From contig CP126195.1 of the NCBI GenBank assembly GCA_030272155.1, positions 4,075,001-4,139,000 on the forward strand: a stretch of DNA of 64,000 bases, written 5' to 3'. The stretch is from Tetradesmus obliquus (lineage: Eukaryota; Chlorophyta; Chlorophyceae; Sphaeropleales; Scenedesmaceae). Position 1 is the first letter of the stretch. Every line of letters starts with the position of its first letter. Both the position numbers and the translations under genes were made by a program. A model generated the notes under the pieces. That model was not told the origin of the DNA. It saw nothing but the letters and a program-made list of their open reading frames with translations, and made no database searches. Below are positions 18,132-53,560 of the stretch, piece by piece.

Positions 18132-21100
18132 CTACAGCTTGTGCCGCAGGCAGCCGCCCTTCCCCTTGCAGCAGAACCCGCAGCAGCGCCGCATGCACGC
18201 AGCTGCTGCCTTGTTGCCACATGCACAGATCAAGCCCACATGCCGCGCCTGCCCAGGCTGCTGCTGCTGGTACGGCCATGGACGCTGCGCCAGCTGATCT
18301 GCGCGAGCTCTCCTCGCGGCTGCTGCTGCCTCAGCTGCAGCTCTGCGCCTGGCTTGCTCCTCCAGCCTGCGCTGACGCCCGGCCTCCTGCGTTGCCTGCG
18401 CTACTGCCTTGAAGTCCTCCATGCTGGCGTATCCAGTTTTGCAAAGAGCGGCGCGCACGCCAGCGACGCCCTTGAGCCAGGACAGCCACCAGCAATGTTA
18501 GCAGGCAGCAGCAGAGGTGAAGCAGCATGGGCCTGAGAGAAGATGCGCCTGCGAGTGAGCTGCAGCGCGGTGGATGTATGGAGCAACTCGACGAGACCGT
18601 ATGCAAGTCAAAAGCCGCAGCATCCAGTACATCTGCACTCTCATCCATCTGCTTGATTGCTTCCCCCATACCAACGGCCACATAACCAGCCCGTCATGCA
18701 AGCAGCAAACCAGTCATGCGTGCTCTTTGCTGCGGCCTGTCCAAGCTGAGGAGCAGGGCAACACAGTCCTGGCCACCTACCGTAGGTTCCCCTTCCACAG
18801 GGTCCCACAGCCATGCCAGCTTCTCGCACTCAGAGAAGCACAGCATTGAGTATTGCAACTCCTCAGCATCTGGCCCGTCCCATGCAGCATACAGGCGGCT
18901 GCGCTCCAGCCGCATTGCCCGCAGCAGCGCCGCAGGAGCCTTGGCGGGCGCAGTCAGGCCAAAGGCGCCCAGCACCCGCAGCACCAGCTCAGCTTTAGTG
19001 CCAGTGACCTGTACAGCAGCAGCAGCAGCAGCGGCGGCGGCGGCGGCGGCAGCAGCAGGAGCCTTGACGATAGCAGCAAGAGCATATGCGCTCAGCGCCA
19101 GCTCAGCCTTGGTGCCAGTGACCTGGCAGTACGCCAGCAGCAGCAGCAGCAGCAGCAGCTATCCAGTGATACGCAAGAGTGTGTGGCAGTTGTCAGCAAA
19201 AGTACCAGCAGCTGGCTGCGTGCTGGCACGCGTGGTGTTGCGATGAAAGTGATAGTATGCCAGCATCAAGGCAGCAGCAGCAGCAGTACCAGCATTGGGT
19301 GCTGCCTATTGCTGTGAAAAGTAATGCTGCATTCCACATGCCAACATTGCTGCAAAGTGCTTCAGCAAGGCAAGCAGTAGCAGCAATCAGCGCCCATGCA
19401 CAGCTGCCAGCAGCAAGCTTTACACAATACGCCTTACCAGTGACACGTGTCAGGGCACACACGCGCCGTCGACCCCCAGCTGCTGCAACGCCCCTGAACC
19501 TGCACTCACACGCACTTCCAACCCCCTAGCACAAACATGCCGGCCCCACCAGCACAAACACCTTCTGCCCAGCAGCTGCAGCAGCAGCATGCTAGCTCAC
19601 CGTCAGCTCCAGCTGCCGAGCAGCAGCCTTCAGCTGCGGCAGCTTCAACCCAGTCGGCTGCTGCACCACGCTGTCCCAAAACGCCCAGCCGCCCAGCGCA
19701 GCAGGCCCCGGCAGTGACGCCAGGCCATGCAGTACCTTCAGGCTGCTGCGAGGGTTCTGCCGCCGTGCAGGCCGCAGCTCGTGCTGCAGCTCCTGCGGCA
19801 AATCGTCTTCCTGCAAGAACGGCAGGAGTGGCAGCTGGCCGTGCTGCCGGTGCTGTGGCAGGTCCTCCAGCAGGTCCTGCAGCACGTCGTCTGGGAGGTC
19901 GTCTGGCGGCGGCAGCTGCTGCAGGCTGGATGCGGCTTCCGCGAGCGCTGTGAAGCCGTGCTTTGCTGCGTGGTAGAAGTCCCAGCACACCTGCAAGGCA
20001 GTTGCGGTGCATGGCAGCAGGCGCAACTGCGCATTGCTGGACCGCATCTAGATGCATCATGCATGCTATGCATGCGCGGTTGCTTGCGGGCTAGGTGCCG
20101 CCGCATGTGCACGCCGGCATGCATGCATGCTGGGAGCCTGCCATCACCCCTGTGGACCCACACTGCTTGAAGGATGCCAACTGTGCAGAAATATCAAGGT
20201 TCCCAACACCATACATCGCTCGGGTGGTGCTGTCAGGCGCAGCAGCCCACTGACCAACAGCAAGGCAACAATGCTCCGCTCAACAGCAGCACAGCTACAC
20301 GCACAGGCACAGCAGCAGCAGCAGCAGCAGCACCCACAGCGAGGCTTGTGCCAGTTCCTTTGCGACACAGCTGGGCCCGCGCAGGCCCCCAGGTTCCAGC
20401 GTGCTTGCCAGGCAGGCCATCACGTTGGTCAAGCACGTGTCCGGCAGCTGCAGCGAGCCGTGGCGGCCCTCTTTCTGCGGCTGCAAGGCTGCATCACACA
20501 GCACATTGCATGGCGATCACAAGAACAGGCAGAGTTAACCAGTGGTTTCAATGCCAGGGCGCATTAACAGTGTGTGCTGTGAGACAGAGCAGTGTGTCAG
20601 AGCCTGGAACCGACACGAAAGGAATTGGCCGCACCACGATGCTACCAAAAACCAGGCAGGTATCCTGCAGCTGCAGCGAGCCGTCCCGCATCTCCCGCAG
20701 CGGCTGCAAGGCTGCAACGCAAAGTGACGGTAAGCATGATGTTTACAACAACAAGCAGCAGGTTCACCAATCGCAACACTGCGGCGCCCGTTGCAGTGTG
20801 TGGTGTGCAAAGCAGCGTGTTGGAGGCCGGCAAGCAATACACACCACCTTTGATGAATTAGCCACAACATTACTGTGATCTAGCAACATGCAGCTAAGCC
20901 ACTTACTGAAGCGCTGCGCCGCCTCTGCCGCTGCTGCTGCCGCTGCCGCCTTGCGTGCCTTCGTCGCTGCCGCGCGCTCTGCTGCGCGCTGCTCCTTGGT
21001 GTTTGCCAGCAGCGCCTGGCGCTCCTCCTTGGCCCTGGCCAGCTCCTGCAAGTTCATGTGCGGGTTGTTACCACACAGCAGCAGAAGCAAGTGTGTGTTT

Positions 21101-22525
21101 ACAAATGTGCGGATACATGTGTGTGCGTATGTAGTGGTGAGCTGTTTGGTTGTTTCTGATGCAAGGATACTGTGCTACTCCATGCCACAGCCAGGTGGGC
21201 GGTGATGGCGTGTCCTGATGTACAGGGAGTGTGGGCAGGAACAGCATTGACGGTGATAGCAGCGGTTGCTGATGCAATGCTAGCAACGGGCGCTAGCTAC
21301 TTGCGTGGTGCGGCTTGCTGACAAAGGGTGCAGCACCTTTTTGTCACATCATGCTGCTGCTGAGCACATTGCTTACCTCCAGCTCCCTGACCAAGTACAG
21401 CCTCATGCGGTGGCCACCTAGCAGCAGAAAGATGCAGCAATGGCACATAGTTCAGCGCAGGCAGGGCACTGGATGCAACGGCAAGCACTGTGATGGGCCA
21501 GCGATGCAGGAGGCAAGAGAGGAAGCTGCAGATGCAATGCAGATGCAATGCAGGGCAGGCAGCGATGATCGAACACACTATTGCTGCTGCTGCCGAGCCT
21601 GTTGCCACTGCCACCAGTTCAGCTGCTTTGCTTGCCAAGAGTCTGCGGCACCTGTTGCAGCTACAATACATGCTGCCTGGCTGTTGCTGTCGCCTGTGGC
21701 CTGCTGCGAAGAGCGCTTGTGCGCACAGTACACTGCCCACACCAGTCCTGCAGCAGCTGCCGCCCACCGCACCTCCAGTAGTGTCCAAGCCCACACACAG
21801 TGCAATGCTTGCTACCCCCAAGTCAAGCAAACTGAAGCGATTCAAATGATATGGCAGCAAGTACAGTCACATGATGTATACACACCTGGGTAGTGTGGGT
21901 TGGGCTCATACACAACATCAGTCAGCTGCTGCAGGTCTGCCTCTGTCAGCCTGTACTGCGCCTTGGCAAAAGTGACGCACAGCCTCCTGGTGGAAGGCCG
22001 CTTCTTGCGCGGCTTCTTCTCCTTCTGCTGCTTCTTGCCTTTCTGTGGCTGCTGCTTCTGCGGTTTCTGCTTTGGTGCTGCTGCTGCAGCTTCTGCATCG
22101 CCATCGTTGTCACTATACTCAGACCCGCTGCCATCGCTGGTACTGCCAACGTCGCTGTCACTGCCAGCAGCAGCGTCAGCCTGCCAATCCTGCAAAGCAT
22201 CATCATCATCATTGCTGCACTCAACCAACTCCTCCAGCTCCTGCTCCTCCCCTTCTGTAATGCCCTCCTGATCTGTGTCGTTTACATCTGCTGCTGCAGC
22301 TGCTGCTGCAGCTTCTGATGGTGCAGCAGCTGCTGCCTCCTCTGCTTGCAGCTGTTCCTGTTCCTGCAAAGCCCCGCTGCTGCTACTGCCCTTCTGCCTC
22401 TTGCGGGATGGCACTGCTGCTATCTCACTCCCTGCAAGCGCCTGCTCAAACTCGTCAGAGTCCAGGTCCACATAGCCGTTGTCCTGTTGCTGCCGTGTGG
22501 CCTGCCGAGTGCGTTTGCTTCGCAT
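18132..22525 (-). CDS. XPA C-terminal-like protein with F-box-like segment and Cys-rich tail
   Basis: Seven exons (21886-22525, 21377-21417, 20907-21045, 20334-20488, 19601-19990, 18781-19122, 18132-18470) close to 681 aa. The N-terminus is acidic and Ala/Gln-rich, then very basic (KKQQKEKKPRKKR, likely nuclear signal). Residues about 190-230 read RLCVTFAKAQYRLTEADLQ, then NPHYPG joined to GHRMRLYLVRELE. This follows the XPA C-terminal DNA-binding domain pattern (TKT.AK..Y.L...DL / NPH...G.MRLYL). A helical Glu/Arg/Ala segment follows, then LPDTCLTNVMACLAS...VCWDFYHAAKHG, which is F-box-like. The C-terminus has a helical region and a CACGN...CMRRCCGFCCKGKGGC tail that could bind zinc. Role suggested: nuclear, DNA damage recognition or ubiquitin adaptor; this is inference. 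The sixth exon could start at 19122 or 19008, because both acceptors are in frame. Its neighbourhood holds partial exon copies. Confidence 0.6.
20652..20711 (-). pseudogene. Partial tandem copy of an exon of the XPA-like gene
   Basis: After a CAG acceptor this reads LQPLREMRDGSLQLQDTCL. That copies the start of the real exon 20334-20488 (LQPQKEGRHGSLQLPDTCL), about 220 bases away. Both acceptors have the same phase, so they could only be alternatives. This copy loses similarity after TCL and has no matching donor phase, so it is probably a decayed duplicate. Confidence 0.55.
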
Positions 22526-24293: not shown

Positions 24294-24333
<40 letters not shown>

Positions 24334-25618
24334 ACACATGCAGGCTGCGCGGCTTGTTATTCCGAGTTGTGGGCCTGGGCCTGCAGCTGGGCCTGCTAGG
24401 CTTCATCATTGCCACCCGTGCAGACGCCCAGTGGCCGCAGCTGCTTGCTGGCGGCTACGCCTGTGCGCGCGTGTGCATTGCAGCATCACATGTCATCATT
24501 GCGTGGTGCATTCCACGAGCCAGGAAGCTGTCGGCTATGACGGCTGTAGCGGGACTTGCACTGGCAGCAGCGCCTGCATGGCTGGCATGGCAGAAGGATG
24601 CTGCGTATGCGCTGCATGTGAAGGTCATGGCAGCAGTGGCGGCAGGTGAGAAGGTGCACAGCATTGTCTGCTGTATGCATAAAGAAACTTGTGCACAGAC
24701 TTTGCCCAGCAGCCGCTTAGGCCGCCTCGGCCCATAAACTTACGCGTTGAGCGCACCGAAGCTCGGCTCGCGTAGCTATTCCTATTCCTTGGACAGCAGC
24801 AGCAGCAGCAGCAGCAGCCATCTGCATCAGCCACCGGCAAGGCATCCCTGGCATGCTGCTGCATTGCTTTGTCAGGCGCGCTTGCAGCACATGCGGCTGC
24901 GCATTCAGCTTGTGATGGCATGATCACTGCCTGCTGCCGCCTACTGCTGCTTGCCTGCTGCCCCACAGGCGAGCCGGATGAGCCGCTGCTGGTCATAAGC
25001 AGGATCTGCACATGCGTATGTGGCTTGATGGCTGCCTGCTGCCGCCTACTGCTGCGTGCCTGCTGCCCCACAGGCGAGTTCATCGAGCCGCTGCTGCCTA
25101 CCTTAGCCCCTCAAGCCGACATCCCGCTGCACGTGCAGCACATGAGCGAGCGCCTCGGGCAGCTCGTCATGCTGCACCTTGGAGAGGCAATCATCGGCAT
25201 TGCAGCAACACCACTGGAGTCTACTGTGCCGCAATTCACAGCGGTAGCGCTCGCTGCCACGCTGGCGTGGGCGCTGCACCTTATATATTATCATGTGGAG
25301 CCGGATGAGCACAGTCATGCCTACAGGCAGAGCAGGATGAGAGGGCTGCTGTATTTTTACTGCCACTGGCTGCTGACGGTGGCGCTGCTGCTGACGGGCA
25401 GCGGCCTGAGGCTGCTGCTGGGTGGGTGCTTCGTAAAATATCATAAGTGTCACATGTGTTTGGGAGGCAGCAGAGAGTCACGGTGGCATGAGGGTGAACC
25501 ACAGGGTGGCGCTTGCTGTACTCGTGTCGCTGTGCAACGGTGTGTTGGTGATGGGTCGGGGTCGCGGCTGCTGTGGCGCTAGCATGTAAGCTGTGTGCAT
25601 GGCCTGCACAGAATGCAC

Positions 25619-25653
<35 letters not shown>

Positions 25654-26184
25654 GGCGTCGACAGCAGCAACAATACCAGCAGCAGGAGCAGCACGAACAC
25701 GCTCCTGCCTGGCCTGTGTCAAGCGCTGCTGGTGTGCAGCTTGCATATGTGATGTGCATGCAGCATGGCACCGCACCAGGAAGGTGCACACTGCACACCA
25801 ACCGCCTCAAATGCAGCTGCCTCAGCTTTTTATTATGCCTGTCTGCCTTGAATCGCCTGCCTGCAGGCACCTACCCATCGCCGCATCACGCCCAGCAGGA
25901 GCCGCTCGCGCCTCTGGACGTGAGTCATGCAGCCGTAGAGCAATAGCAACCAGCACCTGGCTGGCAGCTCAGGGCTGAGCCTTGCTTCGGCGCTTGCAGG
26001 CAGCGTACACAGACTCATGCATGCCACGACTGCAAGACTGGTCACTGGGTAGCTGCGAAGATGCTGGTCTCATCTGCTCCTGGTAGTGGTCACCAAGGTT
26101 ACCGCCGCCACGTACGGCTTCTCCCTGCTACTGTGCACCCCGTACGGCTTCTCCCTGCACATGCTGGCACCAACTCTGCGCCAC

Positions 26185-26219
<35 letters not shown>

Positions 26220-26903
26220 CCCTGCAGACCTCTCTGATGCTGTGCATTGCCTATGGCTTCTCCCTGCACATGCTGGCAGCCATCCTGTGCCACTGCTGCT
26301 GCTGCCTCTGCTGCCCTGCAGACCTCCCTGATGCTGTGCATTGCCTATGGCTTCTCCCTGCACATGCTGGCAGCCATCCGGGGGGCGCACTACCTTGGCC
26401 TGGAGCCGCAGCACCGCGCTGTGCGAGCAGTGTCAAGAGCCGGAGTGAAAGGCTGGTGGCTTGGCTGGTGGCTAATGCTGGGATTGTGGCCGCTGCCTGT
26501 GTACCTGCTGCCGCTGCTGATCTGGTGGCTCAACGGGCCGGCAGCAACAGCAGGAGCCGCATCAGCGGGAGGCGATGGTATGTACAGCGGGCCATGTTTG
26601 GAAGGCGAAAGAGTAGCTGTCGCTGCTAGCATTGGCGGCTCGAGGTTTACAGGCTGCAGTGATGCAGACAGCCTAATGCAGCAGGGGAGTGCCAGCTTGG
26701 GCCTTCCAATGGCGGGCCTGCTGGGCAGCAGCGGCAGCATCAGTGTGACGCTGCTGCTGTCGCTGCTGGCGGGGCATGCGGTGCTGCTGGTGCTGGCTGA
26801 AACGCTGTTTGCGCACATGATCACCAAGACGCCACTGGTGGGGGGAGCGGATGGTGGCAATGACACGCCGCAGGGGCCTGCGCAGGAGGAGGATGAGCTG
26901 TGA
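23244..26903 (+). CDS. LtrA-family (low temperature requirement A) membrane protein
   Basis: Six exons (23244-23481, 23779-23851, 24344-24645, 25074-25421, 25867-25919, 26322-26903) close to 531 aa. Family signatures: VTWPELFFDLFFVAAISNL at residues 50-68; a WSEYTMLKTRYR block; and HMSERLGQLVMLHLGEAIIG in exon 4, which matches the LtrA core H..ERFGLF.ILVLGEAV. The C-terminus has two Trp-rich helices and a last helix before a short acidic tail. LtrA proteins are polytopic membrane proteins; the name comes from Listeria and the activity is unknown. The gene is odd in its splice regions. Exon 4 has a duplicated acceptor at 24969 that would add 35 residues in frame. Exon 6 is preceded by two more copies of its own start. 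CTG tracts precede exons 3 and 6. It converges on the DUS gene and shares a palindromic poly(A) site with it. Confidence 0.85.
24926..25085 (+). repeat. 105-bp tandem duplication of an LtrA-gene 3' splice site
   Basis: Two copies of the intron end (CTGCTGCCCCACAG followed by GCGAG) and of the first exon codons (…GAGCCGCTGCTG) lie 105 bases apart, with acceptors before 24969 and 25074. The spacing is a multiple of three and no stop lies between them. Confidence 0.75.
26112..26400 (+). repeat. 94-bp tandem copies of the last LtrA exon start
   Basis: Copies begin at 26228 and 26322 (CAG then ACCTCT/ACCTCC, CTGATGCTGTGCATTGCC…). A third, 5'-truncated and more diverged copy covers about 26141-26227, and a further fragment of GTACGGCTTCTCCCTGC lies at about 26112. 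CTG/TTG runs fill the intron-like part. The spacing of 94 is not a multiple of three, so only the last acceptor keeps the LtrA frame to the stop at 26903. Confidence 0.75.
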
Positions 26904-27616
26904 GGCGGCAGTTGCAGGGACCGCTTGCATGGGAAGAGTGGTCATCCGGTCATTTAGAGTTCGAATGGTCATCTATAGTTCGATTGTGCGGCAGCTGTGA
27001 AAGGTCCACCCGATGCCATCAGGCTGATGGCATGAGTTGGCAAGTTGGCAGAAGTGGTTGTTCTAGTTGACATTAAGGAGCTATCTAGTCGTGGTTGTTG
27101 CATGGATGTTACATGTAACTCTCTCAACACCAGCTGCTGCAGCATGCCAGGCATTATGGCTCAGCTGCCGCCTGGCAGCACCATTAAGTACCCTGGCAGC
27201 GGCTCGGCCATTGATGGACACTCAGTGTTAGCACTGCTGCACCAAGTAGTAAGCTGGCGACGCAAAAGCGTGGCCCACTTAGTACTCAGCATGTTGCAAT
27301 GCTTGACAATCTTGCCAGTGTCACATCCGCATGCCTGCCCAGCAATTTGCGAGCAGTCCAGTACACAGCAGGCGCTGTTCCTCCGCCCAACAACTATAGT
27401 GGTTAGCTAACTACTGCCACAGCAGCACTAGCCCTAGCCCTGCCCCTCCACTAAATCGCTCATCACCACCGAAACTGCGGCAGCGGACTGACATTGCTGC
27501 AGCACAATCGAATGCCAAAATGGTCCAGCGGCATCACAGACTTGAACACATGCACTGCAAGTCGCGGGCAGTACAGTGCACAGCAGGCGCTGCGGCTTCA
27601 TCCACAACTGCAAATG
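26904..27616. other. Convergent 3' flank of LtrA and DUS genes
   Basis: No gene seen. It carries the palindromic poly(A) signal listed separately and AT-poorer unique sequence. Confidence 0.6.
27108..27119. terminator. Palindromic double poly(A) signal GTTACATGTAAC
   Basis: A perfect 12-base palindrome containing TGTAA on each strand, the usual poly(A) signal of chlorophyte algae. It is 205 bases after the LtrA stop and about 500 bases after the DUS stop, between the two convergent genes. Its use by both is inferred. Confidence 0.5.
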
Positions 27617-30600
27617 CTAACCTTCCACCGCCCGCTCATCAGCACCATCGCCTCTGCTGCTCGCCTTCAACTGCTGCTCCCAGCCTTCCAGCTGCTGCTC
27701 TGCCAGCTGCTGCAGCTGCTGCGCCGCCTCTGCATCACTGGCGCTGTCCCACAGGATGTCTGCAATGGGGCCGTGTGCTGCGTCATTCTCGCAGCGCAGC
27801 AGGCGCTCCAGCAGTGGCAAGTCTGCCTCGTTTTCGCCCACCTATGCGCACAGCCGGGAACAACTTGCCGTCAAAGGCGCGTAGCAGTAGCATAAAAACA
27901 GCCCTGCTTACATGTTGTAAAATGAAAACTCTCCCGCACACACTGCTAGAGCGCCACACAGCTGGATACGGCCTCTGTTGGCACTGAATGCACTGAGGGC
28001 TGCTGTTCAAGTACGCTGCATGCAGCTGGGCGCACCTGCCCTGCCGCCAGGTCAACGCGTGTCGCAGATTTTTGCAGGTGTGTTGACCTGGAGGCCGGTG
28101 GCAGTGGCACTAGCTGGTGATAGTTACATGTGGGTCCTGACAACATTATATACGGCATGGGAAACGCCAGGGTGTAGGTGTGCTGTGCGCACCTGTTCTG
28201 CGGCCAGGTCGGCGCGTGTGGCGATGAGTGGGTGCTGCCTGCTCTGCTCCAGGTAGGCCTCAGCAGGCAGCGGGCGGTACCTGGCGGCAGCAGCACAGGC
28301 AGTACAGCCATTCAAATAACTCAACAATGCTGCCTCAGCCAAGCTTCTGTGGAACAAAGGACAAAGCAAGCACGATGTGGTTGGGCAGCACAAATGATTG
28401 AGCCTGAGCAGTAACGCAAGCGTGCAGCCATGCAAGAAACGTGTGTGCAGGGCACTGCTGAAGCACTGCTGCAGCAAGAACAAGAGCCTGCTGTCGAGTG
28501 CTTGCTAGCCCCACCTGCAGAAGAAGGCGAAGTGCCAGGGCAGGAAGTAGAAGGCCTTGCGCTTGCCCCAAGCGTCATCGCCAAAATGCAGCTGCACGAG
28601 AAACACACAGCACGTATGCACACACGCTGTCAGCCACAACCAGCTTGCTGAGAAGAAGGCGCAAAACAGCTCCGTGTAAGCTGCAGCATGAGCAGGAGCA
28701 TCAAAGTGGACAGGTGCCTAGCAAGTCCAAGTGTGCCTTGAATTCACAGTTCATGCTGTTGCCCAACTGCACACTGGCATGCCTGCCCTCACCTTCATGT
28801 AAGAAGCCACCTGCCTGTAGATGCCTACGCGCTCTGCTGCTGTGGGCAGCAACTCACGACCCTGCAAGAACGCACACAACCCATCTTGGTGACACAGCAC
28901 TAAACCAATGGCGCGGCCAAAGACACGGACATCAACCGGCAGCAGAATATGTGATAGCATGCTGCCGCAAGCATTTTTGCAACGTGGTGTGCAGGCTGCA
29001 TACGCACAGAGCTAGTCACAACTGTGCAAATGTTGCGCCAGGCACAGCTTACGAAGCCCTACCTCCCGGATTTCCTGGAACAGCCAGGGCTTGATGAGTG
29101 CACCCCGCCCCACCATCAGTGCTGTGCAGCTGCTGGCCTGCCACCTGCGCAAGGCAGCACAGCATGCACAGCATGTTTCTGAGCATGCTGCGGCAGCTTG
29201 CATGGGCATGCAGTACTGCTGGGATGGCAGAGCAACAGCAAGCACGTCCATGTGTTGAATTTGCACTGCGTCAGCAAAGTGCGTGCCTGTGCAAACCTCA
29301 TCATACCATACACCAGAGTTGGCCTGCTGCATGCATCACACACGCACACCAACCGCAACGCAGGAACACTGAAGTTGTCTGGACCTCGATGACACACTGC
29401 ACTTGCCAGCTGCATGCACCGCGCAGCACAACAGGATCCGGCTGCCCCTCTCCTTCACTCCCCCACACCGTCGGCTGCCTCGCAGTGTGCCCCCCCCCCC
29501 CCTTACCTGTGAGTGCCCCCCCTCAGCTGCAACATAGCATGCCTTACCCCCTCACCTGTCGGCCGCCTCGTAGTGTGTGAGGATGTCTCCGTTGCCGATG
29601 ATGGGCAGGCTGCTGGCTGTGACTATCTCGCTGATCAACGCCCAATCGGCAGCCTTCTTGTACCTGCACACAGCGCGCCATGCAGGTCAGCAGCAGCCGC
29701 AGCAGGAGCAGCAGCAGCAGCAGGTTACGCAACACTGCCTGGCCTCACCGCTGCTCCATGGTCCTTCCATGCACGGTGACGGCTGCTGCGCCCGCCTGCT
29801 CAAGCAGCGCAACCACCCTTAGCGCATTCACCTTCCTCTCTGACTCGCCTGCGAGACACGCATGTCGAAAAAAACAATCACAAAAAACACATGTGCAACA
29901 ACGCGCATCGACTGCATTCCATTGGCCTGCATGCCATGCTGATGTCTCTGGCAGCCTCTTGCCATGCTGAGTTTGCTTGCACAGCGGCAGGCCCTAGGCA
30001 CATTCAAGCATGCATTCGAGCGCACGACAGCTCCCGCAACAGCTATTCTTCAGCTGGATCTTGGCGAACGTGTTTGTATTGTATAACGCCTCCAGCATAA
30101 GAACAGCTTCCCACCGGTGCGTATCTTGACGGTGACCGGCAGCTCCACCGCTGCCGCAATGCCGGCCACCATCTTGGCCAGCTTGGTGGGCTTGCGCAGC
30201 AGCGCAGCACCCATGCCGCGCCGCGTGGCCTCTGCGGCAGCAGTAGCAGCAGCTGGCGTGTGTTGACGCTAGCGATGTGTTTTGATGCAATGTAGCTAGA
30301 AGGTACGCTTGCATGAAATCTGGCAGCCTGCTGACTTTTTCTGTGGGGTAAGGAAGCTTTTAGCTGGTACTGCAGGGTAGCAATGCTTAGTGGCCTGCAA
30401 GTTCAAGTCACAAAGCTGGCCTGGCACCTCACCATAAATGGGGCAGCCGCAGTTGATGTCGATCCAAGAGGCGCCAGCCGCCTGTGCTGCTGCTGCAGCC
30501 TTGACTCCCTCTGCGATGTTGTTTGTGGCCACTTGCACGCCAAAGCAGGCCTCATTGCTAGCTTTGTAGAGGCGTGCTTTCTCGACCCTGTCACCCCTGC

Positions 30601-32383: not shown

Positions 32384-34690
32384 GCCTTTCTGGGCCCTAA
32401 GATTCGGCGCCAGTGGACGATGGCCAAGGACACACGAGACAGCACCAGCTGCCAGGTGCTGCCTTTCCTGCTGGACATTTCGCTGGCGCTGTATGACACA
32501 CTGGACCTGGTCAAATCCAGTGTAGATTCAGAGGTGGTGTTTCAGGCCACACTGCAGGTGAGGAGTAAGCAGAGTATGTACTAGTAGGTGAGAGGGAGAA
32601 CACACAGTGCAGCAAGGTACACATAACCTGTCCTGCAAGCTGTGCTGTATGACACGCTGGACTTGGTCAAGTCCAGCGTAGATTCAGAGGTAGTGTTCCA
32701 AGCCACACTGCAGGTGAGACTGAATGAGACTGAGAAACGCATGTATGCAGTGTCGTGCACACGGTTGCCTGTCCTGCAAGCTGTACTGCTTTGTTTGCTA
32801 GCAGCCCGGCGACATGTAGCTTGTGCAGTTGATACAGCTGCCATCTACAATGCTGCACAGCGTAAAGGAAATCGCAGCAAAGGGTGTGGCTGCATCTGGC
32901 ATCGTCCCTGCAGCATGAGTGGTGACACATCACACTGTCAGTAGTCCCTCGAGCTTGAATCAAGTTGCAATTGGATCCTGCCAACTTGTGCTGCTGCTGC
33001 CTTTTTCATTCTTCCGCTTTCAGGTGCCTGCACACCACTCGCTGGCATGTAAGCTGCAGGTGCGACTAGCATGCGCGGAGCATCACCATCATCATCATCA
33101 TCAGCAGCAGCAGCAGCAGCATCAGCAGCAACAGCATCATTGTGAGCAGCACCAAATGGCTGTTCCATCAGTCCGTGCCTACATGTGCTGGCTCTTTGCA
33201 GTGCCATCAGCGGCACAAACTGAGCTCAGTCCCGACATGGTGTGCTCATGACGCCTGACGCCCCTTGTGTCCGCGCCCATCTACTCAACATATACTGACA
33301 TGCAACTTGCAAACCCCCTGTCAACACCACGCATACGCGCAGGCATACGGCACTCCCTTTGCAGCGCCAGACCTACAGGCCGCAGCAGGCGACCTGGCAG
33401 ACGCCGATTTGGAGTTTGCGGCATGCATAGCAGCGCCGCCTGACCTGGATGAGCAGATGAGCATGAACATTGGACGCGTGCTGTCCATGCTGGAGCATAA
33501 CAGGGCAGGCCAGGTGCAGGCAGGGCCTGTGGCACGAGCAGCACCTGCAGCACAGCAGCAGCAGGCGCCCTCGGGCGGGTGAGTGGCAGGGATTAGTGTT
33601 TGGTGGTGTTGCGGGGAGCAGCAGGGTCCCTGGCGGTTGCTGCTGCCTTGCAGGGTGCAGTGGCTGGTTCAAAAATCTTTAAAAAAAGATTACAAGTAAA
33701 AAATTTCAAAAAAATTCATTATTTTTCCAAAACGTTTAAAACGAAGAAGATTCCTTGTTGGGGGGGGCTGCACAGAGAGAGACAGCAGCAGCAGCAGCAG
33801 CGGGAGCAATGTTGCAGGTGATGGGCAGTCAACTTCTATGCAGCAGAGCCCATTACACCACTGATCAAGTTGCAGTGCTCCTCTGTTGGGCAGCAGCAGC
33901 AGCGGCAGCTGTCGCTGCCATCTTAATCTGTGCAAGAGTTGCTAGCATCCTTGCAGATGTCCCTTTGTCATGCAGCAGTGGTGTCCGAGGTACACTGCCA
34001 TTCCGAGTAGCGCCGTGGCCGTGCCGTGGCCGATCTTGCTGCGTCGTTCAGGGGAGCTACCACAGCAGCGCAGCAGCTGCGTGCCGGCAACGTGCAGCAG
34101 CAGGCTGCGCCCAAGGTGCTGGTCAGCGTGGACGATGCAGAGGCCGGCAGTGCGCAGCTGCAGCGCAACAACAGCGCCAAGAAAGGGTGAGGCGGTTGGA
34201 CTCTCTGACTGAATTCGGTGGCGCTACATCATGTCATTTCCCAGTTGGTGGAGAGGAAGCAGCACTGTCAAGCCCAAGTGTGACTCACACCACACTTCTT
34301 GCCTCTTTGTGAGCGTCGTCCCTGCTGACTCACCTTTTTTTCCTGGTGTGAAACCCTACCACTCGCAGGCCGCGCTTTCTGGCGCTAGATACTGGCTTTG
34401 GCAAGCGCGCCATGCAGGCCCTACTCGGCTTTGGCTACCTGCTCACCGTGCTGCATGAGAAGCACCTCGGGGGACACATCGAGTTCACAGCCTCCGCCCT
34501 CACAGCAGCAGCAACCAGCACCCCAGCCACCGGCAACAGCCACACACGCCACCGTGCCAGCTTCAGCAGCAGCGGCGGCGGCAGCAGAGGCCACAATAGC
34601 ATGCTCGCAGGGCTGCGCAAGGCGATCCAGGAGTGCCCCTCGCTGTCTCCTGGGTCCTTTACTGCTGCCCGGCGCAGCGTCGGCGGTCCT

Positions 34691-34721
<31 letters not shown>

Positions 34722-36089: not shown

Positions 36090-36121
<32 letters not shown>

Positions 36122-38783: not shown

Positions 38784-43159
<4,376 letters not shown>

Positions 43160-44418: not shown

Positions 44419-46498
44419 CTACCGCCCGCCGCGCTTCTGCTGCCGCAGCCTCGCCACGTCCTTGGGGTCCCTGCTGCGCTCCGTTATGTACTTGCGCTGC
44501 TCCTCCAGCTGAGAGGGGTCCAGGCCCTGGTACTGCCTCGGCTTCTGCTGCTTGCCAAAGCTGAAGGCAAACATGCCACGCCGCAGGCCTGTGCCATCGT
44601 CTGCGTCCCCGTCGGCTGCAGCCTTGTCCCTGCGCCAGCAGCAGTTGCAGGTGCAGCAATGCGGTGCGCAATGGTGAGTAAGCGCGTGCGTTGGCAACTC
44701 TGTTGCAGGCTTCGGCACACCTCCTGCTGCTGCCATGCCTGGCGCTGCATAGGCAGCACCAACTGCAGGAGTGCAAAGCAGTGTGCAGGCAAACCGCGAA
44801 GCCGGTGCTGCATGCAAGCATAGCTTCACAACCATCGGTGCTTCCTTGTAACAACACAACAGCACAATCCATGTTACGCTGCTGTCTCACCCGCCGCCCG
44901 CCTTCTTGGCCAGCAGCGCTGCTTTCACTGCTTCTGTGGCCTCGATCTGCGCCATCTTTGACTCCTTGGACACCTCTACCTCAGTGATGGCTGTCATCAT
45001 GCCTGGCAGGCTGACCTCCTGGGTCAGGCTGGCCTGCAGGTTTCATGGGAATGAAAACAGAGAGCACAGCAGCAGCAGCAGCAGCAGCAGAACCTGCAGT
45101 GTCAGTGATGGCTGTCATCTTGCCTGGCAGGCACACCTCCTGAGTCAGACTGGCCTGCAGATGGGATGGTGCGCAACAAGCAGGTATGGTCATCACCAGG
45201 TTGCACATAAACATTTGGACCAGAGCTGCCAACCACAGCATAGCCGCTTGTAGACTGCATGCAGACAAAGCAAACTCAGCAATGAATGTTACAAGAAAGG
45301 CATAAGCTCCTCCCTTGCAGAGTCAGCAACTTGCGAATCGCAAACGCTCAAGCAGCCGCTCCTCCTTCCCCTGCTGGCTTCGCCAAATGCACGCTTGTTT
45401 TCCAGTGTCTAGCTGCCGTGTAAAACAGAGCCCTCACACACTATGGCAACTGTAACATGTCACATGACACTTTACATGACACACCCGCCACCCACCTGCA
45501 GCCCCTCGGGCAGCCTGTACAGCTCCAGCTCCTCCTGCTGCTGCCTGCTGAGCCGCTGCTGGCCCTCATCAACCTGCTTGCCCAGCCGCGCCGCCAGCTG
45601 AGACTCAATGTAGCGCTGCACGCAAGAAACGGCAGGCAGGCATGCAACCGGTCAGCATGCCAGTATGACGGTCCTCCATGAACGAAAACGGCGCGCCGCC
45701 AGGTGCGACTCAATGTATCCACAGCCCGTACACATCCACGGCTGGTACGCATTTAACCCATCACAAAAGACATGGTATCCTTACCTGCTGCTGCTGCTTG
45801 CTGCTGCTGAATTCCGGCTATAGCCTGTGCATAGGCAGTCTTGCTGCTGTTGTTGTTGCTGCCGTCTGTGCGTACTGTGGCAATTGGTGCTGCTGCTGCG
45901 AACTCTGCAATCGCAACACCGATACGCAAGCTGAACCTGGCCTGCGCCTCCTCTTTCCACAGAAACAGCCCACCTGCATGTGTGTCTCCTCATCCAAGAT
46001 CTGGCTCTTTGCCGTGCCCTCTGCCTTCACATACTGTGCATCCATGAGCTCATTGTCCCCAAACCCATCCCCATCATCTGCTGCTGCAGGAACCAGCTTG
46101 CTGGCATCAATGCCTGCAGTGCGCTTGCGCTGCTTCTGCAGCAGCTTCAAGCCATGCAGCAGGTCCGCCTTCACCTCTGCTGCTGCTGCCTCGTCCGCTG
46201 CTGTCGCTGCATCTTCGGGATCGTCTTCTAGGGCGCGCTTTTTGCGTAGGTTGCGCTGCTTCCCAGACTTGGGCGGTTTTGCGGCTACCTGCTGCTGTTC
46301 TTGTTGTTGCGGCTGTTGCGGCTGTGGCTGCTCTGTGCTTGGTTGATTCTGCTGCTGCGCCGGCTCCGGCTGTTGCTGCTGCTCTTGCTGCTGAGGCGTG
46401 GGCTGTTCATGCTGCTGCTGAGGCGCGTCTAGCTGCTGCTGTTGCTGCTGCTCTGGCTGCTGCTCGGCCTGCTTCTCTGTCTGTTCTGCGTCAGACAT
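44419..46498 (-). CDS. TLS1/HCA59 (C9orf78) family spliceosome-associated protein
   Basis: Four exons (45974-46498, 45496-45615, 44891-45033, 44419-44629) close to 332 aa from ATG 46498. After an unusual N-terminal extension of about 80 residues dominated by Gln/Pro/Glu, the HCA59 features follow. They are a basic NLRKKRALEDD segment; LLHGLKLLQKQRKRTAGID, the family's helical KLQKLRKR.GI block; RYIESQLAARLGK with a LYRLPEGLQ (E.LY.LPE.L) motif; the TAITEVEVSKESKMAQIEATEAVKAALL segment; and a charged C-terminus. The human and yeast relatives act with the spliceosome, and the Arabidopsis relative CSU2 binds COP1. A nuclear role in splicing is therefore likely but inferred. Partial duplicate copies of exons 2 and 3 lie in the introns just upstream of the real ones. 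It is divergent from the MFS gene (about 1 kb apart). Confidence 0.8.
45083..45154 (-). pseudogene. Partial tandem copy of HCA59-gene exon 3
   Basis: After CTGCAG this reads ASLTQEVCLPGKMTAITDT, copying the real exon 3 start (ASLTQEVSLPGMMTAITEV) 121 bases downstream. A CTG run (45068-45090 in gene sense) separates the two. It shows an intact acceptor and frame but no good donor. Confidence 0.65.
45683..45720 (-). pseudogene. Partial tandem copy of HCA59-gene exon 2
   Basis: Reads GYIESHLAARR, a copy of the exon 2 start RYIESQLAARLGK about 100 bases away. It lies in the intron upstream of exon 2, is short and diverged, and has no canonical AG directly before it, so it is unlikely to be used. 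Confidence 0.6.

Positions 46499-47482: not shown

Positions 47483-47513
<31 letters not shown>
46499..47513. other. Divergent promoter region of HCA59 and MFS genes
   Basis: No gene seen. The last 30 bases before the MFS start codon are CAG repeats (about 47482-47512), so the plus-strand 5' UTR ends in a CAG run directly at the ATG. Confidence 0.55.
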
Positions 47514-47515
<2 letters not shown>

Positions 47516-48312
47516 GGGTGGTGAAGATGACCCCCCTCATGAGTCAGATGATGGCAAGCCGCTGCTGCTGCAGCATGTGCAGCAAGCTGATGCAGCGCGG
47601 TCAGCAGCAGTGGTGCGGGCCATCAACATTCACGTGCTGCCAATCTTCCTGGCCATGGCCACGCTGTGTTACATTGACCGAACAAACACGGCATTTGCAA
47701 GCTTGCAGATGAACAGGGACCTGCGCTTCTCGGCTGAAACCTATGGTGAGCAGCAGCAGCAGCAGCAGTGATGGTGGTTCTTAGTTGGCAGGGACATCAT
47801 ACTCATTACGGCACGTGTTGGATGCAGCAGCAGTCACAAAGCAGCAACAACAGCAACAGTAGTGCAGGTGGCCACAGCGTATGCATCCGCACTGCTGCTG
47901 TTGCTGGCCAGGTCACCCCGCTCCACCAACAGAGCATGCACCTTCACAGCCTGCCATCTCGTTTTTGTATCTGTGTGCCCTGATCCCCCATGTGTGTGGC
48001 CGCAGGCCTCGGCTCCGGGCTGTTCTTCCTGGGCTACAGCGCATCCATGATCCCCTCGCAGCTGGTGCTGATGCGCGTGGGCGCGCCGCGCTGGCTGGGG
48101 TTCATTGTGACAGGCTGGGGGCTGACCGCCATGAGCTTCTCAGCGATGCGCAGCAAGTGAGCGGGGGGAGGCGCATGATACCATACATATCGATCTGTTG
48201 TTACAATGCATTGACATGAGCATAGTCGCGAGTTGAGAGTATTCAAGCATGAGTTTCACATTGTGGCACAGTGCCTGTTGAAAATGCACACTTGATGCAA
48301 TGCTGTGGGAGT

Positions 48313-48349
<37 letters not shown>

Positions 48350-49622
48350 CAGCAGCAGTGGCTGGGGGCTAGCCGCCATGAGCTTCTTCGCATTGTGCAG
48401 CAAGTGAGCGGCGGCGCTGGTGGGGTTGATGTTGCTGGGAGCCTGCACTTGTGTACTCGGCATCGTCATAACCTGAGTACTGGCATTGTAGGACGTTGCA
48501 TGCCAGCAGGTGTCTGTTATCCCGCAGCAGCTGTAGCCTAACTGCCGTCGAATGTGCCCGCCTGCCTGCTGTTTTTGCTGCCGGCTGCTCATCCCGCAGG
48601 CATCAGTTCTGGGCGCTGCGTGTGTGCCTGGGCATGTTTGAGAGCGGCGCCTTCCCTGGCATGTGTAAGTGGGCACACCAACAGCCCTGCAGCTCGCAGA
48701 ACCCATCGTTACTTTGTCCTACAACACAGCATCACCGCTGCATGGTTTGCGGCAGCTTGTGAGGCCACCTTTCAGCTGATTAGGAGGCAGGCATGTGGGC
48801 TGCAGCACTTCTCTGCAGCTGCTTGTTTATTACGCGCCTGCTGAGGTACAGCCTGATACTATACCCAAAATTGACGCGTCACCTTTAGGAACAGCTGGGG
48901 AATCCCACAATGGCGTGTGGCGCACTGTTCAGGTCAATGTAACATGTGTTCTAACACATGTCTGTCAACGCTCACAGGGCACTACCTGAACAGCTTCTAC
49001 CCAGCAGACGCCATCACGCTGCCCTACTCCCTCATCGAGGCAGCAGTAGGCCTAGCCAATGTAGCCGGCGCACCCCTGGCGGCTGTCCTGCTGCTGCTGG
49101 ACGGCACCGGAGGCTGGGCTGGCTGGCGCTGGCTGTTTCTGATCGAAGGGGTGCCCAGCGTGGCGACTGGCATTGCCATGCTGTATGTGCTGCCAAAGGA
49201 CTTTGCAGCGGCAACGTTCCTGGGGGCGGCTGACAAGGCATGGCTTGCGCAGGTGCGCTGGCAGCAGTATGACAAGTTCTCTTGGTTGTTTTATGGTTAC
49301 AACACTGCGGACACAACTATCTTGCATCTGAAGAGTTGTTGTGGATGGTTGCAAGGTTTGATGTGCTGCACCAAAGGGACTGGGGAGGCGTGCCATGGAG
49401 CCACGTACTGTGTGTGTCGTCGCCTGCGGCTGTGGCAGTGACAAAAGCTGCTGCATGAACGTTTTCTAGTGATGTCAAATGTCGCGCACGCGATCAGCAC
49501 CGCCGGTACACTGCACATGAGTTTTACTGGCATGCAGCGCTGCAGCTGCCATGGTGCTACTGCAACCAATTCAGCCACAACCCACTTTACCATCAAGCTA
49601 CTGCCGACGTGTCGGCCGTGAG

Positions 49623-49660
<38 letters not shown>

Positions 49661-50924
49661 TGATGCCAACCGTGCAGGCGCACGCCGCCAGCAAGCGCCA
49701 TGCAGCCGAGGCGGAAGTGCGGGGGCCGCTGCGGCTGCTGTACGACGCTGCTGCCAACCCCCGGGTGTGGCTGGTGGGGCTGGCTGCGCTGCTGAAAAAC
49801 GCAGCCATGGTCGGCATACTCTTCTGGTGAGCAGCGCATGCCGGGTTGGTTCTTTTGGGGCGCAAACACATGGGGCTTTCAGGGCTACCAAGTAGGATGC
49901 GTCAATCATTATTGCGCTGTCGCTGGTCATACAAGCGTAGGTGCAGACACTGCATTCGCATGCCTCAACCTTATCTCTCCCTGCATGCGCTTGTAGTGGC
50001 AGTTATAAATTGTTTCAGACGCCCGGCTTATTGTCTTGGTGGTTTGTTTCATCCTCGGCATACCACTGCGTGTTCCGCTGTGCTGCAGGTGCCCTATCAT
50101 TGTGAACGCTATCATCCATGGAGGCAGCATAGACATGGCAGCAGAGGCAGAACCCATAGCAGCAGCAGCAGCCGGCAGTCACCACGGCCGCCTGTTGTTA
50201 CAGCAGCAGCGGCAGCTGCTGGCAGCAGCAGCCAGCAAAGCCTCCGGTAGCAGCAGCAGCAGCAGCATCTCAGAAAAGGGCGTTGCTGCAGTGCTGCTGA
50301 CCGCAGTGCCGTTCATATGTGCAGCAATCTGTGCTGTGCTGCTTGGGCACCGCTCCCAGCGGCAACGAGAGAAAGCTGCACATACTGCGGTGCCTTACTT
50401 CGCAGCAGCTCTGCTGTTCATCATTTTCCCGTTTGTGGCATCGAGCGGCGGCGCTGCTGCATTTGTGTGCCTGGTGCTTGCCATCACTCTGCTGACGGCG
50501 CCAAACGCGATATTGAACTCCTTGGCTTCTGCGGTCAGCCAGGGACCCTCTGCTGCTGTGGGGCTGGCTCTGTACAATGCGGTGGGTGCGCTGGCGTGTG
50601 TGAAGGGACAGTTTTATACAGTAAATGCATGATTACGCATCTTCCAGCAGTGTGTGCTATGAAATCTGCTGCATGGCTTGCAGTGCTTGCTCGTAGCCCA
50701 ACTTCCAGTGATGGTTAGCTGTTGCGAGGGGTTGTCTGTGAACCGTATCTTGTTTTCCATCACTGCTCACAGCAAGCACAGCACTCAGAGCTCCTCACAG
50801 CCAGCACGCACATGCTCAGCTGCAGATTTTCCTCACCATGCGTTTGCCTGCTTGCGCTGCTGATGCTCATGCCGCCGTGTGTGTCACTGCTGCTGCTGCT
50901 GCTTCTGCTTCTGCTGCTGCTGCC

Positions 50925-50959
<35 letters not shown>

Positions 50960-51111
50960 AGGTGGGCAATGTGGGTGGCCTGCTGGGGCCGTGGCTGATC
51001 GGGCGCGTGGTGGAGGCCACAGGCGGCTACGCTGCTGCGCTGCAGGCGCTGGGGCTCATGGTGGCTGCTGCTGGCTGCCTCTGCTGGTCCTTCAGGCGCT
51101 GGCGGCTGTGA
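47514..51111 (+). CDS. Major facilitator superfamily transporter, anion:cation symporter type
   Basis: Seven exons (47514-47745, 48006-48156, 48600-48664, 48978-49252, 49678-49826, 50089-50581, 50962-51111) close to 504 aa. Family features: INIHVLPIFLAMATLCYIDRTN, the first helix with the YIDR.N signature of the ACS family; GLGSGLFFLGYSASMIPSQL; FWALRVCLGMFESGAFPGM; WRWLFLIEGVPS; and a C-terminal GNVGGLLGPWLIGRVVEATGGY helix. Twelve helices are expected. The loop coded at the start of exon 6 has an insertion rich in Ala/Gln/Ser. Substrate is unknown; relatives carry organic anions such as phthalate-type acids, glutamate or allantoate, or phosphate. The 3' part of exon 2 is duplicated downstream with a CAG run between. 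TGTAA at 51367-51371 is a plausible poly(A) signal. CTG runs precede exons 5 and 7. Confidence 0.88.
48112..48418 (+). repeat. Tandem copy of MFS exon 2 end and donor, separated by a CAG run
   Basis: The end of exon 2 plus donor (GGCTGGGGGCTGACCGCC… AGCAAGTGAGCGG) at 48112-48170 recurs at 48359-48414 as GGCTGGGGGCTAGCCGCC…, with a CAG tract at 48316-48358 before it. The copy has a TAG in the original frame, so it is not a simple alternative exon. Confidence 0.8.
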
Positions 51112-52493
51112 TGACAACATCTTTGTATGTCCTAGTAGAGCAGGCTGATGCAATTGCAGCTGCCAGCTCTTTGGGAAGGTGTGACATCCTGTTCATCGAT
51201 GGTGGTGCTTGCTGATGGCGCAACAGTATGGTGTGTCAATGCTATTGCCGGCTGAAGCAGTCTTACACGCCACTTGACTGAATTTTCTGCATGGTGTATC
51301 CTGGTGCAGCTTTGAACACCGGTGGCACCGTGCCATTGGCCATGCATGGTGCAGCGGCTATTAGGTTGTAAAGAATAGTCACTGGGCCACTGGGACAGCA
51401 GTTTCATATAGCAGATGCCGGTTTAGCATACTGAATTTTGTTCTTTGATCCAAGGATCGCGTGTCGTGCGTCATCTGTTTGACTTGCAGCTGGATTATCC
51501 ACACTCTTGGACCAACCATGCCTAGCTGCTCTGCTGCAGGAGCCAGACGAATGATTGGTTCAGGCCATGCTTTCATCCTGTAAAGACTTTGAACGCCTTA
51601 CATTGTTGAACTGCCACGTAAAGCTTGCACCTGATCGGTGTCACCGGCGCCAGCGTCACGCACAAGAATGATTGACCGGTGCCCATCATTAGCCGAGTCG
51701 GGGTAAATTCTGGCAGCCTCAGCCGTACCAATTGTGTTTCTCTAGAACGCATGCAACCGTTCAATGGTATGAGTATATAGTGGGCGGTGGGATGCACACC
51801 TTGGTGTCCAGGGTGTTGCCCGAAGCTGGTGCCCACTGAAGCCCTCAAACACCGTAGGGCGCCCCGACCCTGTGTTCTCTTGACAGTCAAGTCGACTTGA
51901 AATATTTTCAACGGTGATCACTATTACAACATGTAGCAAGCGAACTGAAAGTCAAGACGCTGTCCCTTCCGTCCAGTGGAACTTCAGCCGCGGCTTGACG
52001 GGGGGTGAAAAGGCCGTTGCTGGGCTCAGCTACAGTCTAGAATCGTCTGGAAGGTGTGTTAGATGTGGCTGTGGCTTTGCTGAGCTATTCAGACATGCTC
52101 GACTAGGACTTGCAAAGGTTGGCCAGCTTCTTGCTCTGGCGTGTAGTAGCTGTGCCTGACATTCTCCAACAGCCTTTGAGGTCTTTCTGGCAGCTCAGGA
52201 CTGTCCTTGCCGTCTCGCTTTGGTCCCCGGCAATTGACAGTGCAGGCTCGGCTGGTGCACCAAACACACGGCCTGCTGCCCAGCACAGGCCGATGCAATC
52301 GGCCAACATAATCAGCAGCAGGAACCCGCCAGATCCGCAGCGACGGGCGGGCAGGCCATCGGCAGCTGGCAGCATGTCCAGTGCTTGCCATGAGCAGCAG
52401 CATCAGTGGCAGCAGCAAGCTGCTTCCAGCTGGTGCCAGCAGCCCCGCTGCAGCGCTCAATGTGCAGCCATCCACGCACATGGGGAAAGCAGC

Positions 52494-52547
<54 letters not shown>

Positions 52548-52595
52548 CGGCGAGCACCGCTGCGCATCATAAGCAGCAGCAGAGCTGCGCCGCTG
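51112..52595. other. Intergenic region
   Basis: 3' flank of the MFS gene (TGTAA at 51367-51371) and 5' flank of the Cys-rich protein gene. An open frame from 52110 runs into that gene but is repeat-driven (CAG run at 52496-52546) and I treat it as 5' UTR. Nothing else is supportable. Confidence 0.5.
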
Positions 52596-53432
52596 ATGCT
52601 GGCGCTGCTGCTGATCATGCCGTCGCTGCTGCTGCGCATGGCAGATGCTGCAGCTGCGCAGCCGTGTATAGAGTGCAACCAGTGCCTCACCGCCAGCTGC
52701 CAGCGCATCTGCAGCACTTCCTGTGCTCGCAGGAGCAGCGCGTTTGTGACTGGCGACCAGTGCAAGTACATGGGCGAAGAAGCAGCAGACACGGTTGCCG
52801 AAGCTGCATGCAAGTTTGTCCAGGTAGGTTTGCAGCACATCTGCAGCAGCAGCTGTGGTGGGCATATGTGCAGCTTGCAGGACATGTGCGGGTGGCAGGA
52901 GAAAGGCAGCAGCATGAGGTTGTGCAGTATGCAGCCGCTGTTGGATTCCATGCCGTGTGCCTTGCAGGATGCTTCTGGCAGGGCCGACATGACAACAGCG
53001 ACAGCCTTTGTTACAGCTTGCCAACCAGCAGCTGCCTAGTCACTCACACACAGGAAGTGCACTCCACTCTCAGCAGCAGCAGCAGCAGCCTGCCTGTACC
53101 ATCAAGCTGCGTCTTGCGCACGGTGTGTTATCTGTTTGGCAGCTGACCCACCGCGTGTGTGCACCTGTGACTCCATTTTCCTGCAGGCAAACTGCAACCA
53201 GGGCAACAAGCAGGCCACAGCAGCTTTCTTCAGCAACCAGCCTGTGTCAGCCACAGAGTGTGCCAGCATAGCAAATGGGGCCTGCCAGCGCAGCGCCATG
53301 TCTACCTCCAACACACCCTGCGGGGTGTACCTGTATTTTGGCTTCAAGGCATGCAGCGGCAAGCAGTTCACTGACATGTACAAGGCGCGTGTAGTGGCAC
53401 TGTGCAGGGCAGCAACCAGCCGGCGCAGATAA
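52596..53432 (+). CDS. Small secreted cysteine-rich protein, unknown function
   Basis: Two exons in phase, 52596-52823 and 53187-53432, give 157 aa. ATG 52596 opens a strong signal peptide (LALLLIMPSLLL, then MADAAAAQ). The mature part has about 14 cysteines: CIECNQC, CQRICSTSC, CKYMG and CKF in exon 1; NCNQGN, ECASIANGAC, CGVYLYFGFKAC and LCRAA in exon 2. I do not recognise the family. The intron is open in the same frame and also Cys-rich (CGWQEKG…CSMQP…CALQ), so a middle exon or intron retention up to a stop near 53039 is possible. Short imperfect copies of the end of the coding sequence follow the stop. Probably secreted, with disulfides; role unknown. TGTAA at 53827-53831. Confidence 0.5.
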
Positions 53433-53560
53433 GACTAGGCGTGTGCGCACTGCTTGTGCTGCACCCGACCAGCGGCGCAAATAGCAGGATACAATGGGGC
53501 TGTGCAGGGCGGCAACCACTCAGCGGCGCAAAATTACGACCTTGCGTGTGTGGCAGTGCT
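53399..53560 (+). repeat. 98-bp imperfect tandem duplication at the 3' end of the Cys-rich gene
   Basis: CTGTGCAGGGCAGCAACCA…CGGCGCA at 53400-53430 returns as CTGTGCAGGGCGGCAACCA…CGGCGCA at 53498-53529, with a related stretch between them. The second copy is past the stop. Confidence 0.65.

Follow-up and report, generated by a model that had tools for sequence, protein, structure and literature searches.

Exon-edge duplications across the Tetradesmus obliquus genome and a possible recombination-borne constraint on their intronic copies

Why should the introns of several neighbouring genes hold a second copy of the border of the adjoining exon? The question is raised by a window of 64,000 bases from Tetradesmus obliquus (contig C5, 4075001-4139000; window positions below count from its first base), for which a preliminary description had reported local copies of exon borders in seven genes, had judged chance an unlikely cause, and had looked to CAG/CTG triplet tracts for their origin. 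We find here that the repeats are real and genome-wide and are not due to chance, and that the intronic copies differ from their exons with a marked excess of synonymous changes. The explanation that we favour, and to which we would give a little less than an even chance, is that segments spanning exon borders are recurrently duplicated in tandem, and that recombination between copy and exon then keeps the copies exon-like.

The genome analysed comprises 104,662,953 bases in 17 contigs; the T. obliquus genome is given in the literature as 107.7 Mb with 15.7% coding sequence (PMC5966456). Alongside the window we sampled 24 loci of 10 kb (240 kb) from the same genome, placed at one fixed site per contig (17), at a second fixed site on three contigs and at five random sites, with a stretch on contig 2 excluded; these loci are referred to by L numbers. 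Each sequence was compared with itself after simple tracts had been masked, at a cut-off of at least 40 bits, and repeats with an offset of 30-530 bases were counted as local. The window contains 14 direct repeats in this range and none in each of eight farther 500-base bands, with no inverted repeats at 30-530 bases and two in four other bands inspected. By rising distance band, the 24 loci yield 245, 45, 8, 2, 0, 0, 0, 4 and 0 direct repeats, i.e. 45 at 530-1030 bases, 8 at 1030-1530 bases and 0-4 beyond these, while inverted repeats at 30-530 bases number 2. Both the 245 to 2 ratio of direct to inverted repeats and the fall-off with distance bear out the view that local duplication is recurrent and that chance is an unlikely source. 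Templated-insertion repair in both orientations was also considered, and is ruled out because inverted copies are nearly absent. Arrays contribute several pairs apiece, and the pairs group into 112 clusters; the window accounts for 10 of these, and 20 of the 24 loci for the other 102. In the sample, 102 clusters in 240 kb amount to a density of about 42 per 100 kb, at which the whole genome would hold some 44,000. The duplication process is uneven along the genome. Four of the 24 loci (L014, L018, L026 and L032) have no local duplication cluster, L014 nonetheless containing 16 triplet tracts.

What do the repeats copy? For measurement we selected the 80 best pairs with non-overlapping copies, 32 of the 112 clusters having been left out beforehand, and a further 8 were removed by length, which left 72 measurable pairs of 28-130 bp. 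Exon edges were assigned by eye from the sequence around the pairs. The exon copy was defined as the copy that continues into coding sequence, and the side on which the spare copy lies is therefore part of the definition. Read in this way, 51 of the 72 pairs are exon edges. In 26 of them an exon start and its 3' splice site recur farther upstream, within the intron; in the other 25 an exon end and its 5' splice site recur farther downstream, again within the intron. The claim that the duplicated units always include a splice junction was thus too strong, although it describes most pairs, 7 of 9 in the window among them. Identity reaches at least 95% in 12 measurable pairs, and nine of these belong to the 51 exon-edge pairs. 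Over 28 exon starts and 25 exon ends (two later-fetched genes included, as in the comparisons of intron parts below), the median length of the copied exon part is 47.5 and 58 bases, respectively, and the median offset 124.5 and 155 bases (range 91-318).

The flanks of the copies were scored for coding character. With the frame taken from the copy alone, and with four edges on the wrong strand, the outer flank on the exon side is open in 25/26 pairs of the 3' type and 23/25 of the 5' type (codon scores +0.13 and +0.09); with the strands corrected and the frame chosen using that flank, it is open in 26/26 and 25/25 (+0.17 and +0.15). Mean codon scores in the remaining flanks range from -0.16 to +0.02. 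On its own the open-frame test is weak, because a random stretch of 20 codons is open 60% of the time. The copies themselves have a mean codon score of 0.115 against 0.042 for random segments (standard deviation 0.012; 63 pairs), which says nothing on where the edges are placed. Two protease genes that had been fetched for another reason (L034 and L035) show copies, as judged by eye, at 3 of their 9 exon edges, with one exon start showing two spare copies at a spacing of 99-100 bases. More broadly, at least three copies are found within 1500 bases at 14 of 52 exon edges, a few of them 600-1300 bases off and perhaps unrelated matches. By a rough estimate of our own, uniform placement would put 35-45% of tolerated events across a border, as compared with 51 of 72, and enrichment at borders is therefore likely, if unproven. 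Seven exons (in L012, L015, L017, L020, L022, L029 and L030) appear on reading to have both edges copied, leaving a split shadow of the exon.

The most striking property of the spare copies is how they differ from their exons. For exon starts, 82 of 113 differences are synonymous, where random placement of the same base changes within those exons gives, over 300 trials, a mean of 34 and a maximum of 49; for exon ends the figures are 77 of 121, with a mean of 37 and a maximum of 50. Counted codon by codon, the 23 exon starts with an intact frame show 78.5 synonymous and 29.5 non-synonymous differences. Changes that are unique to the intronic copy could be polarised in 14 families of at least three copies among 52 edges examined, and here 53 of 94 are synonymous against 28.4 expected (maximum 39 in 300 trials). 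Across all 51 gap-free pairs, edges or not, the counts by codon position are 62, 44 and 153. The choice of edges by eye could favour copies that still look coding, and the 21 measurable pairs that were not assigned to an edge stand outside the synonymous test. The intronic copies themselves appear to have evolved under a constraint resembling that on a protein. Translation of the spare copy by simple extension of the exon is ruled out as the source: 12 of 68 copies can be read in frame and free of stops in this manner, the other 56 being out of frame or stop-blocked, and the excess is equal in the unreadable copies (179 synonymous, 90 non-synonymous) and the readable ones (40 and 24; Fisher p 0.56).

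Within the window itself, local direct repeats were confirmed at the places first reported in six of the seven genes. The seventh, a Cys-rich gene, has a pair at 53400 and 53500 (53400..53564, + strand) with 74% identity, 31.9 bits and E 0.99, which is indistinguishable from chance. As to the gene names, Pfam backs LtrA and HCA59 (Hep_59), whereas the exons tried of the genes called XPA-like, mannanase and MFS returned no Pfam match. The features are as follows.

18979-19008 and 19093-19122, - strand: exon start and its upstream intronic copy, 90% over 30 bp at offset 114, CAG/CTG-rich between and beside.
20430-20597 and 20653-20820, - strand: diverged repeat of unassigned type in the gene called XPA-like, 71% over 168 bp at offset 223.
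24916-24991 and 25021-25096, + strand: LtrA gene, intronic copy of intron tail plus exon start, and its partner, 87% at offset 105; the exon begins at 25074, and 25076-25405 matches Pfam LtrA PF06772 (E 1.5e-16).
26121..26379, + strand: LtrA gene, CTG-rich intron tail plus exon start three times, at 26121, 26226 and 26320, 82-98% (98% for the pair at offset 94); the exon begins at 26322, has two intronic copies and, taken alone, no Pfam match.
27336-27377 and 27551-27592, strand and type not assigned: additional pair above the cut-off, absent from the preliminary description, 83% at offset 215.
28025-28065 and 28182-28222, strand and type not assigned: a second such additional pair, 83% at offset 157.
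32488-32562 and 32644-32718, + strand: exon end with 5' splice site (the exon ends at 32557) and its downstream intronic copy, 91%; 7/7 exonic differences are synonymous.
42456-42502, 42634-42680 and 42751-42791, - strand: gene called mannanase, exon start and two upstream intronic copies, with a CAG tract at 42517-42621 between; the exon has no Pfam match.
44981-45033 and 45102-45160, - strand: HCA59 gene, exon start and its upstream intronic copy, the pair 44981-45039/45102-45160 at 92% with a CAG tract at 45067-45090 between; the gene matches Pfam Hep_59 PF07052 (E 3.1e-5).
45587-45612 and 45692-45717, - strand: second pair in the HCA59 gene, 92% over 26 bp and borderline at 39.2 bits, just below the 40-bit cut-off.
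48126-48167 and 48373-48414, + strand: MFS-like gene, exon end with 5' splice site and its downstream intronic copy, 86%, with a CAG tract at 48314-48358 immediately before the copy; the exon has no Pfam match.

Several of these pairs enclose a triplet tract, and it was from this association that slippage or repair at CAG/CTG tracts had been proposed to make the copies. Part of the association holds up. Of 63 sample pairs, 15 have a pure tract of at least five units in their spacer, where 8.2 would be expected (95% range 4-13.5), the window spacers are more tract-linked still (4 of 10 versus 1.0 expected), and exon-start units often contain a CTG-rich intron tail. However, tracts are dense throughout (2.5-2.6% of bases), the spacers of 48 of the 63 sample pairs contain none, and when the span plus 50 bases is considered there is no excess in the sample (19 versus 17.8 expected). 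Nor is the number of tracts predictive of the number of clusters over the 24 loci (rho 0.29, p 0.16): L014 combines 16 tracts with 0 clusters and L015 3 tracts with 8 clusters. Tracts may help some exon-start duplications; they are not the engine, and as a general origin of the copies we now consider them very improbable.

The self-comparison also brought out repeats of other kinds. In the window, a 24-base unit (TGCGATGTTGAGTTGCGTCATGGT) occurs three times at 54268-54340, just past the region first described, and a 26-base unit forms a perfect tandem pair at 63114-63167. At L020:6553-7185, a unit of about 97 bases that includes splice-like sequence recurs several times over (21 pairs) and forms a minisatellite that may derive from an exon edge. 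The array at L029:5956-6521 has a 113-base unit made up of a CTG tract, a 3' splice site and an exon start, and its best copies are 100% identical; another exon of this locus matches the dynein heavy chain AAA lid domain. A longer repeat at L024:4382-5677 (786 aligned bases, offset 518, 96% identity) is of a kind unlike the exon-edge copies. On the question of introners or mobile elements, recurrence elsewhere in the genome was searched for with three regions only. L015 5080-5420 matched only itself; L029 7000-8200 matched itself, one local copy and three short sequences on other contigs, with no donor; and the third matched itself and nine sequences of 35-84 bases, all inside query bases 413-497.

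Do the copies serve the genes in which they lie? It had been suggested that they may feed alternative splicing or exon gain; on this view the spare copies would work as alternative splice sites, or as mutually exclusive ends of exons, and selection on proteins would maintain them. In favour of such a role, many copies in the pairs read retain the splice motif, and the offsets of exon-start copies are divisible by 3 a little more often than expected (16 of 33, p 0.051), with no such tendency in exon-end copies (11 of 35). The synonymous excess, however, is the same in readable copies and in the 56 of 68 that simple exon extension leaves out of frame or stop-blocked, and no consistent new splice site was found at the inner end of the copies in the pairs read. 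The chain of the photosystem II D1 protease has been solved (PDB 1fc6/1fc7), from an organism that we take to be Scenedesmus obliquus, and its pieces match one place in the genome with 98% identity over 55 residues, 95% over 39 and 78% over 36, the last match extending past the exon end. In this gene, intron tail and exon start are duplicated jointly (80% over an alignment of 95 columns). In the solved chain, the part that is printed, GGGLFPA-GVNVARMLVDRG, runs from the previous exon directly into the downstream (exon) copy, where the upstream copy would read GANVVCMLVNRG, and within that printed part there is no added exon at the site of the copy. The crystallised enzyme, perhaps from another strain, therefore uses the exon-attached copy and holds only that copy at this place. 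Taken together, these results lend no support to a contribution to alternative splicing or exon gain, and we regard functional copies as quite improbable.

A different concern is that the copies are an artefact of assembly, in which two diverged haplotypes or strains have been mixed and the exon edge of the second allele placed in the intron of the first. Each copy would then be coding in its own haplotype, and the introns would be too diverged to align. This would explain the synonymous pattern directly, untranslatable copies included, and would fit the lack of similarity in many spacers. It would also predict at most two copies, as against the three or more at 14 of 52 exon edges (a few perhaps being unrelated matches) and the longer arrays. 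Mixed haplotypes agree poorly, too, with the observed divergence, which spans 0-20% and which pairs lying in one 10 kb locus do not share (p 0.71; 47 of the 53 edges entered the test, the six dropped being 24916 in the window, L013 7691, L020 5911, L033 863, L034 and L035). Separate events that differ in age would be expected to give this outcome. Divergence at the two edges of a single exon is slightly closer than in random pairs, but not significantly so (6 exons, p 0.12). Furthermore, exonic parts of 97-98% identity stand beside unalike introns at L015 9129, L017 8991, L022 4527, L029 9044 and L034, and an artefact should yield working alleles in the intron, whereas the intronic copy of the D1 protease would alter 4 of the 12 residues GVNVARMLVDRG of the solved chain and therefore does not look like one. 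We consider the artefact unlikely, albeit something to be reckoned with.

Is intron sequence copied along with the exon edge, as tandem duplication across a border would require? At some places this is clear. Arrays of at least three units that include intron tail and exon start are found at L017 9263, L029 4057 and L029 6218, the adjacent intron part is clearly copied in L035, L017 9263 and L020 5467, and L013 1249, a pair with a mostly-tract spacer, is by eye a plain tandem repeat. For the 3' type, intron tails become less similar as the exon part does (0.81, 0.74, 0.68), in line with a joint copying of the two. Individually, 8 of 28 intron tails lie above the 95% null, a threshold raised by the CTG-rich sequence that the tails have in common, and 11 of 25 intron heads of the 5' type do so. 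The exon-derived part often remains similar where the intron part does not. A simple account would be plain neutral tandem duplication at any position, with events inside exons being lethal, those at borders or in introns surviving, and nothing further happening. Orientation, range and arrays all fit this, and exon-derived parts would remain recognisable for longer, one of the two copies being conserved. It predicts, however, that about 30% of the changes in the intronic copy should be synonymous, where 56% are seen, and that in young copies the intron and exon parts should be alike to about the same degree, an expectation not borne out by the youngest pairs of the 5' splice-site type. Neutral duplication with nothing added thus appears rather improbable to us.

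We return to border-spanning duplication followed by recombination, which we hold tentatively. To account for direct, short-range repeats with a synonymous excess that is independent of the reading frame, tandem duplication would have given birth to all pairs and recombination would be the cause of the constraint. Short segments across an exon border would be duplicated in tandem, repeatedly, to leave copies about 90-320 bases apart. Splicing would keep using the copy that is joined to the rest of the exon, so that the spare copy would sit unseen in the intron, on the upstream side for a duplicated exon start and on the downstream side for a duplicated exon end. Intron sequence within the unit would decay fast and the exon-derived part remain exon-like, most probably because direct repeats some 100 bases apart would undergo gene conversion or deletion, through which a harmful change in the intronic copy could overwrite the exon. 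Should such events be frequent relative to population size, the exon would expose to removal any harmful change that arose in the spare copy, and copies bearing such changes would be weeded out in a very large population. A bolder proposition, that untranslated exon-edge copies are held exon-like by selection that acts only via recombination with the adjoining exon, and form a reservoir of spare splice sites and exon starts, strikes us as doubtful, if worth serious thought.

Several results weigh against duplication followed by recombination. The assignment of exon edges rests on reading by eye, and an automated count of AG/GT at the copy boundaries (50 of 72, versus 50 at mirrored and 52 at middle positions) does not discriminate, because both dinucleotides are too common here. 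The synonymous excess is smaller at the 20 exon ends with an intact frame, with 55 synonymous and 40 non-synonymous differences by codon. Intron heads of the 5' type do not track the identity of the exon part (0.60, 0.68, 0.65), and in the six 5' pairs whose exonic identity reaches at least 95% no head is alike, two of the six pairs measuring just 18 and 26 bases. Under a steady clock, plain tandem duplication does not give unalike heads at young exon ends, and it is for this that conversion is invoked; no direct footprint of conversion was seen. Finally, in 43 of 54 simple pairs no resemblance at p 0.05 links the spacer to either outer flank, in a test of low power where masked tracts make up most of a spacer.

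At about 42 clusters per 100 kb, with most of the measurable pairs judged by eye to be exon edges, intron growth, splice-site turnover and intron gain should be traceable in all stages at once. If it is true that the untranslated copies carry constraint at the level of the protein, this would be a genome-wide case of such constraint on sequence that is never translated, and recombination between short repeats would become readable from sequence. It would also follow, given intronic copies that look coding, that gene models and conservation scans in this group need care.

How do these copies compare with known systems? Among the titles and abstract openings listed from the part of the literature covered, none describes widespread exon-edge copies in the introns of this group. 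Intron gain by tandem duplication has been reviewed (PMC3443670) and reported in flies, and in the AGGT model a new intron arises between two AGGT copies, with coding sequence resuming after the second (PMC2891723). The copies described here are likewise local direct duplications of splice-like sequence. Intron gain by this route, in which the offset would equal the intron length, is nonetheless ruled out, because the flank behind the second exon-end copy does not look coding: it is open in 14 of 25 pairs of the 5' type (mean codon score -0.15), and the flank before the first copy in 17 of 26 of the 3' type (-0.10), where a random stretch is open at a frequency of 0.60. Direct repeats near intron splice sites have been described as insertion scars of 4-30 bp around both ends of an intron (PMC11782384); ours are also direct and lie at intron-exon borders, but are mostly 30-90 bp and are copies of one border. 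In tandem exon duplication with mutually exclusive exons, exons are arrayed in tandem and one is chosen (PMC9013439). There too exon material is duplicated locally, whereas here it is usually one exon edge that is copied. The only border-spanning duplication that we found in print is that of a single potato gene, for RdRp, studied as a route to a new intron, in which a tandem duplication crosses an intron-exon boundary and RNA reads show a new intron and an inserted exonic stretch (PMC4974935). As in that gene, intron end and exon start are duplicated in tandem, the copies differ, and the splice signals come from the parent border. In T. obliquus, by contrast, the spare copy appears to stay in the old intron, and this is seen at very many borders.

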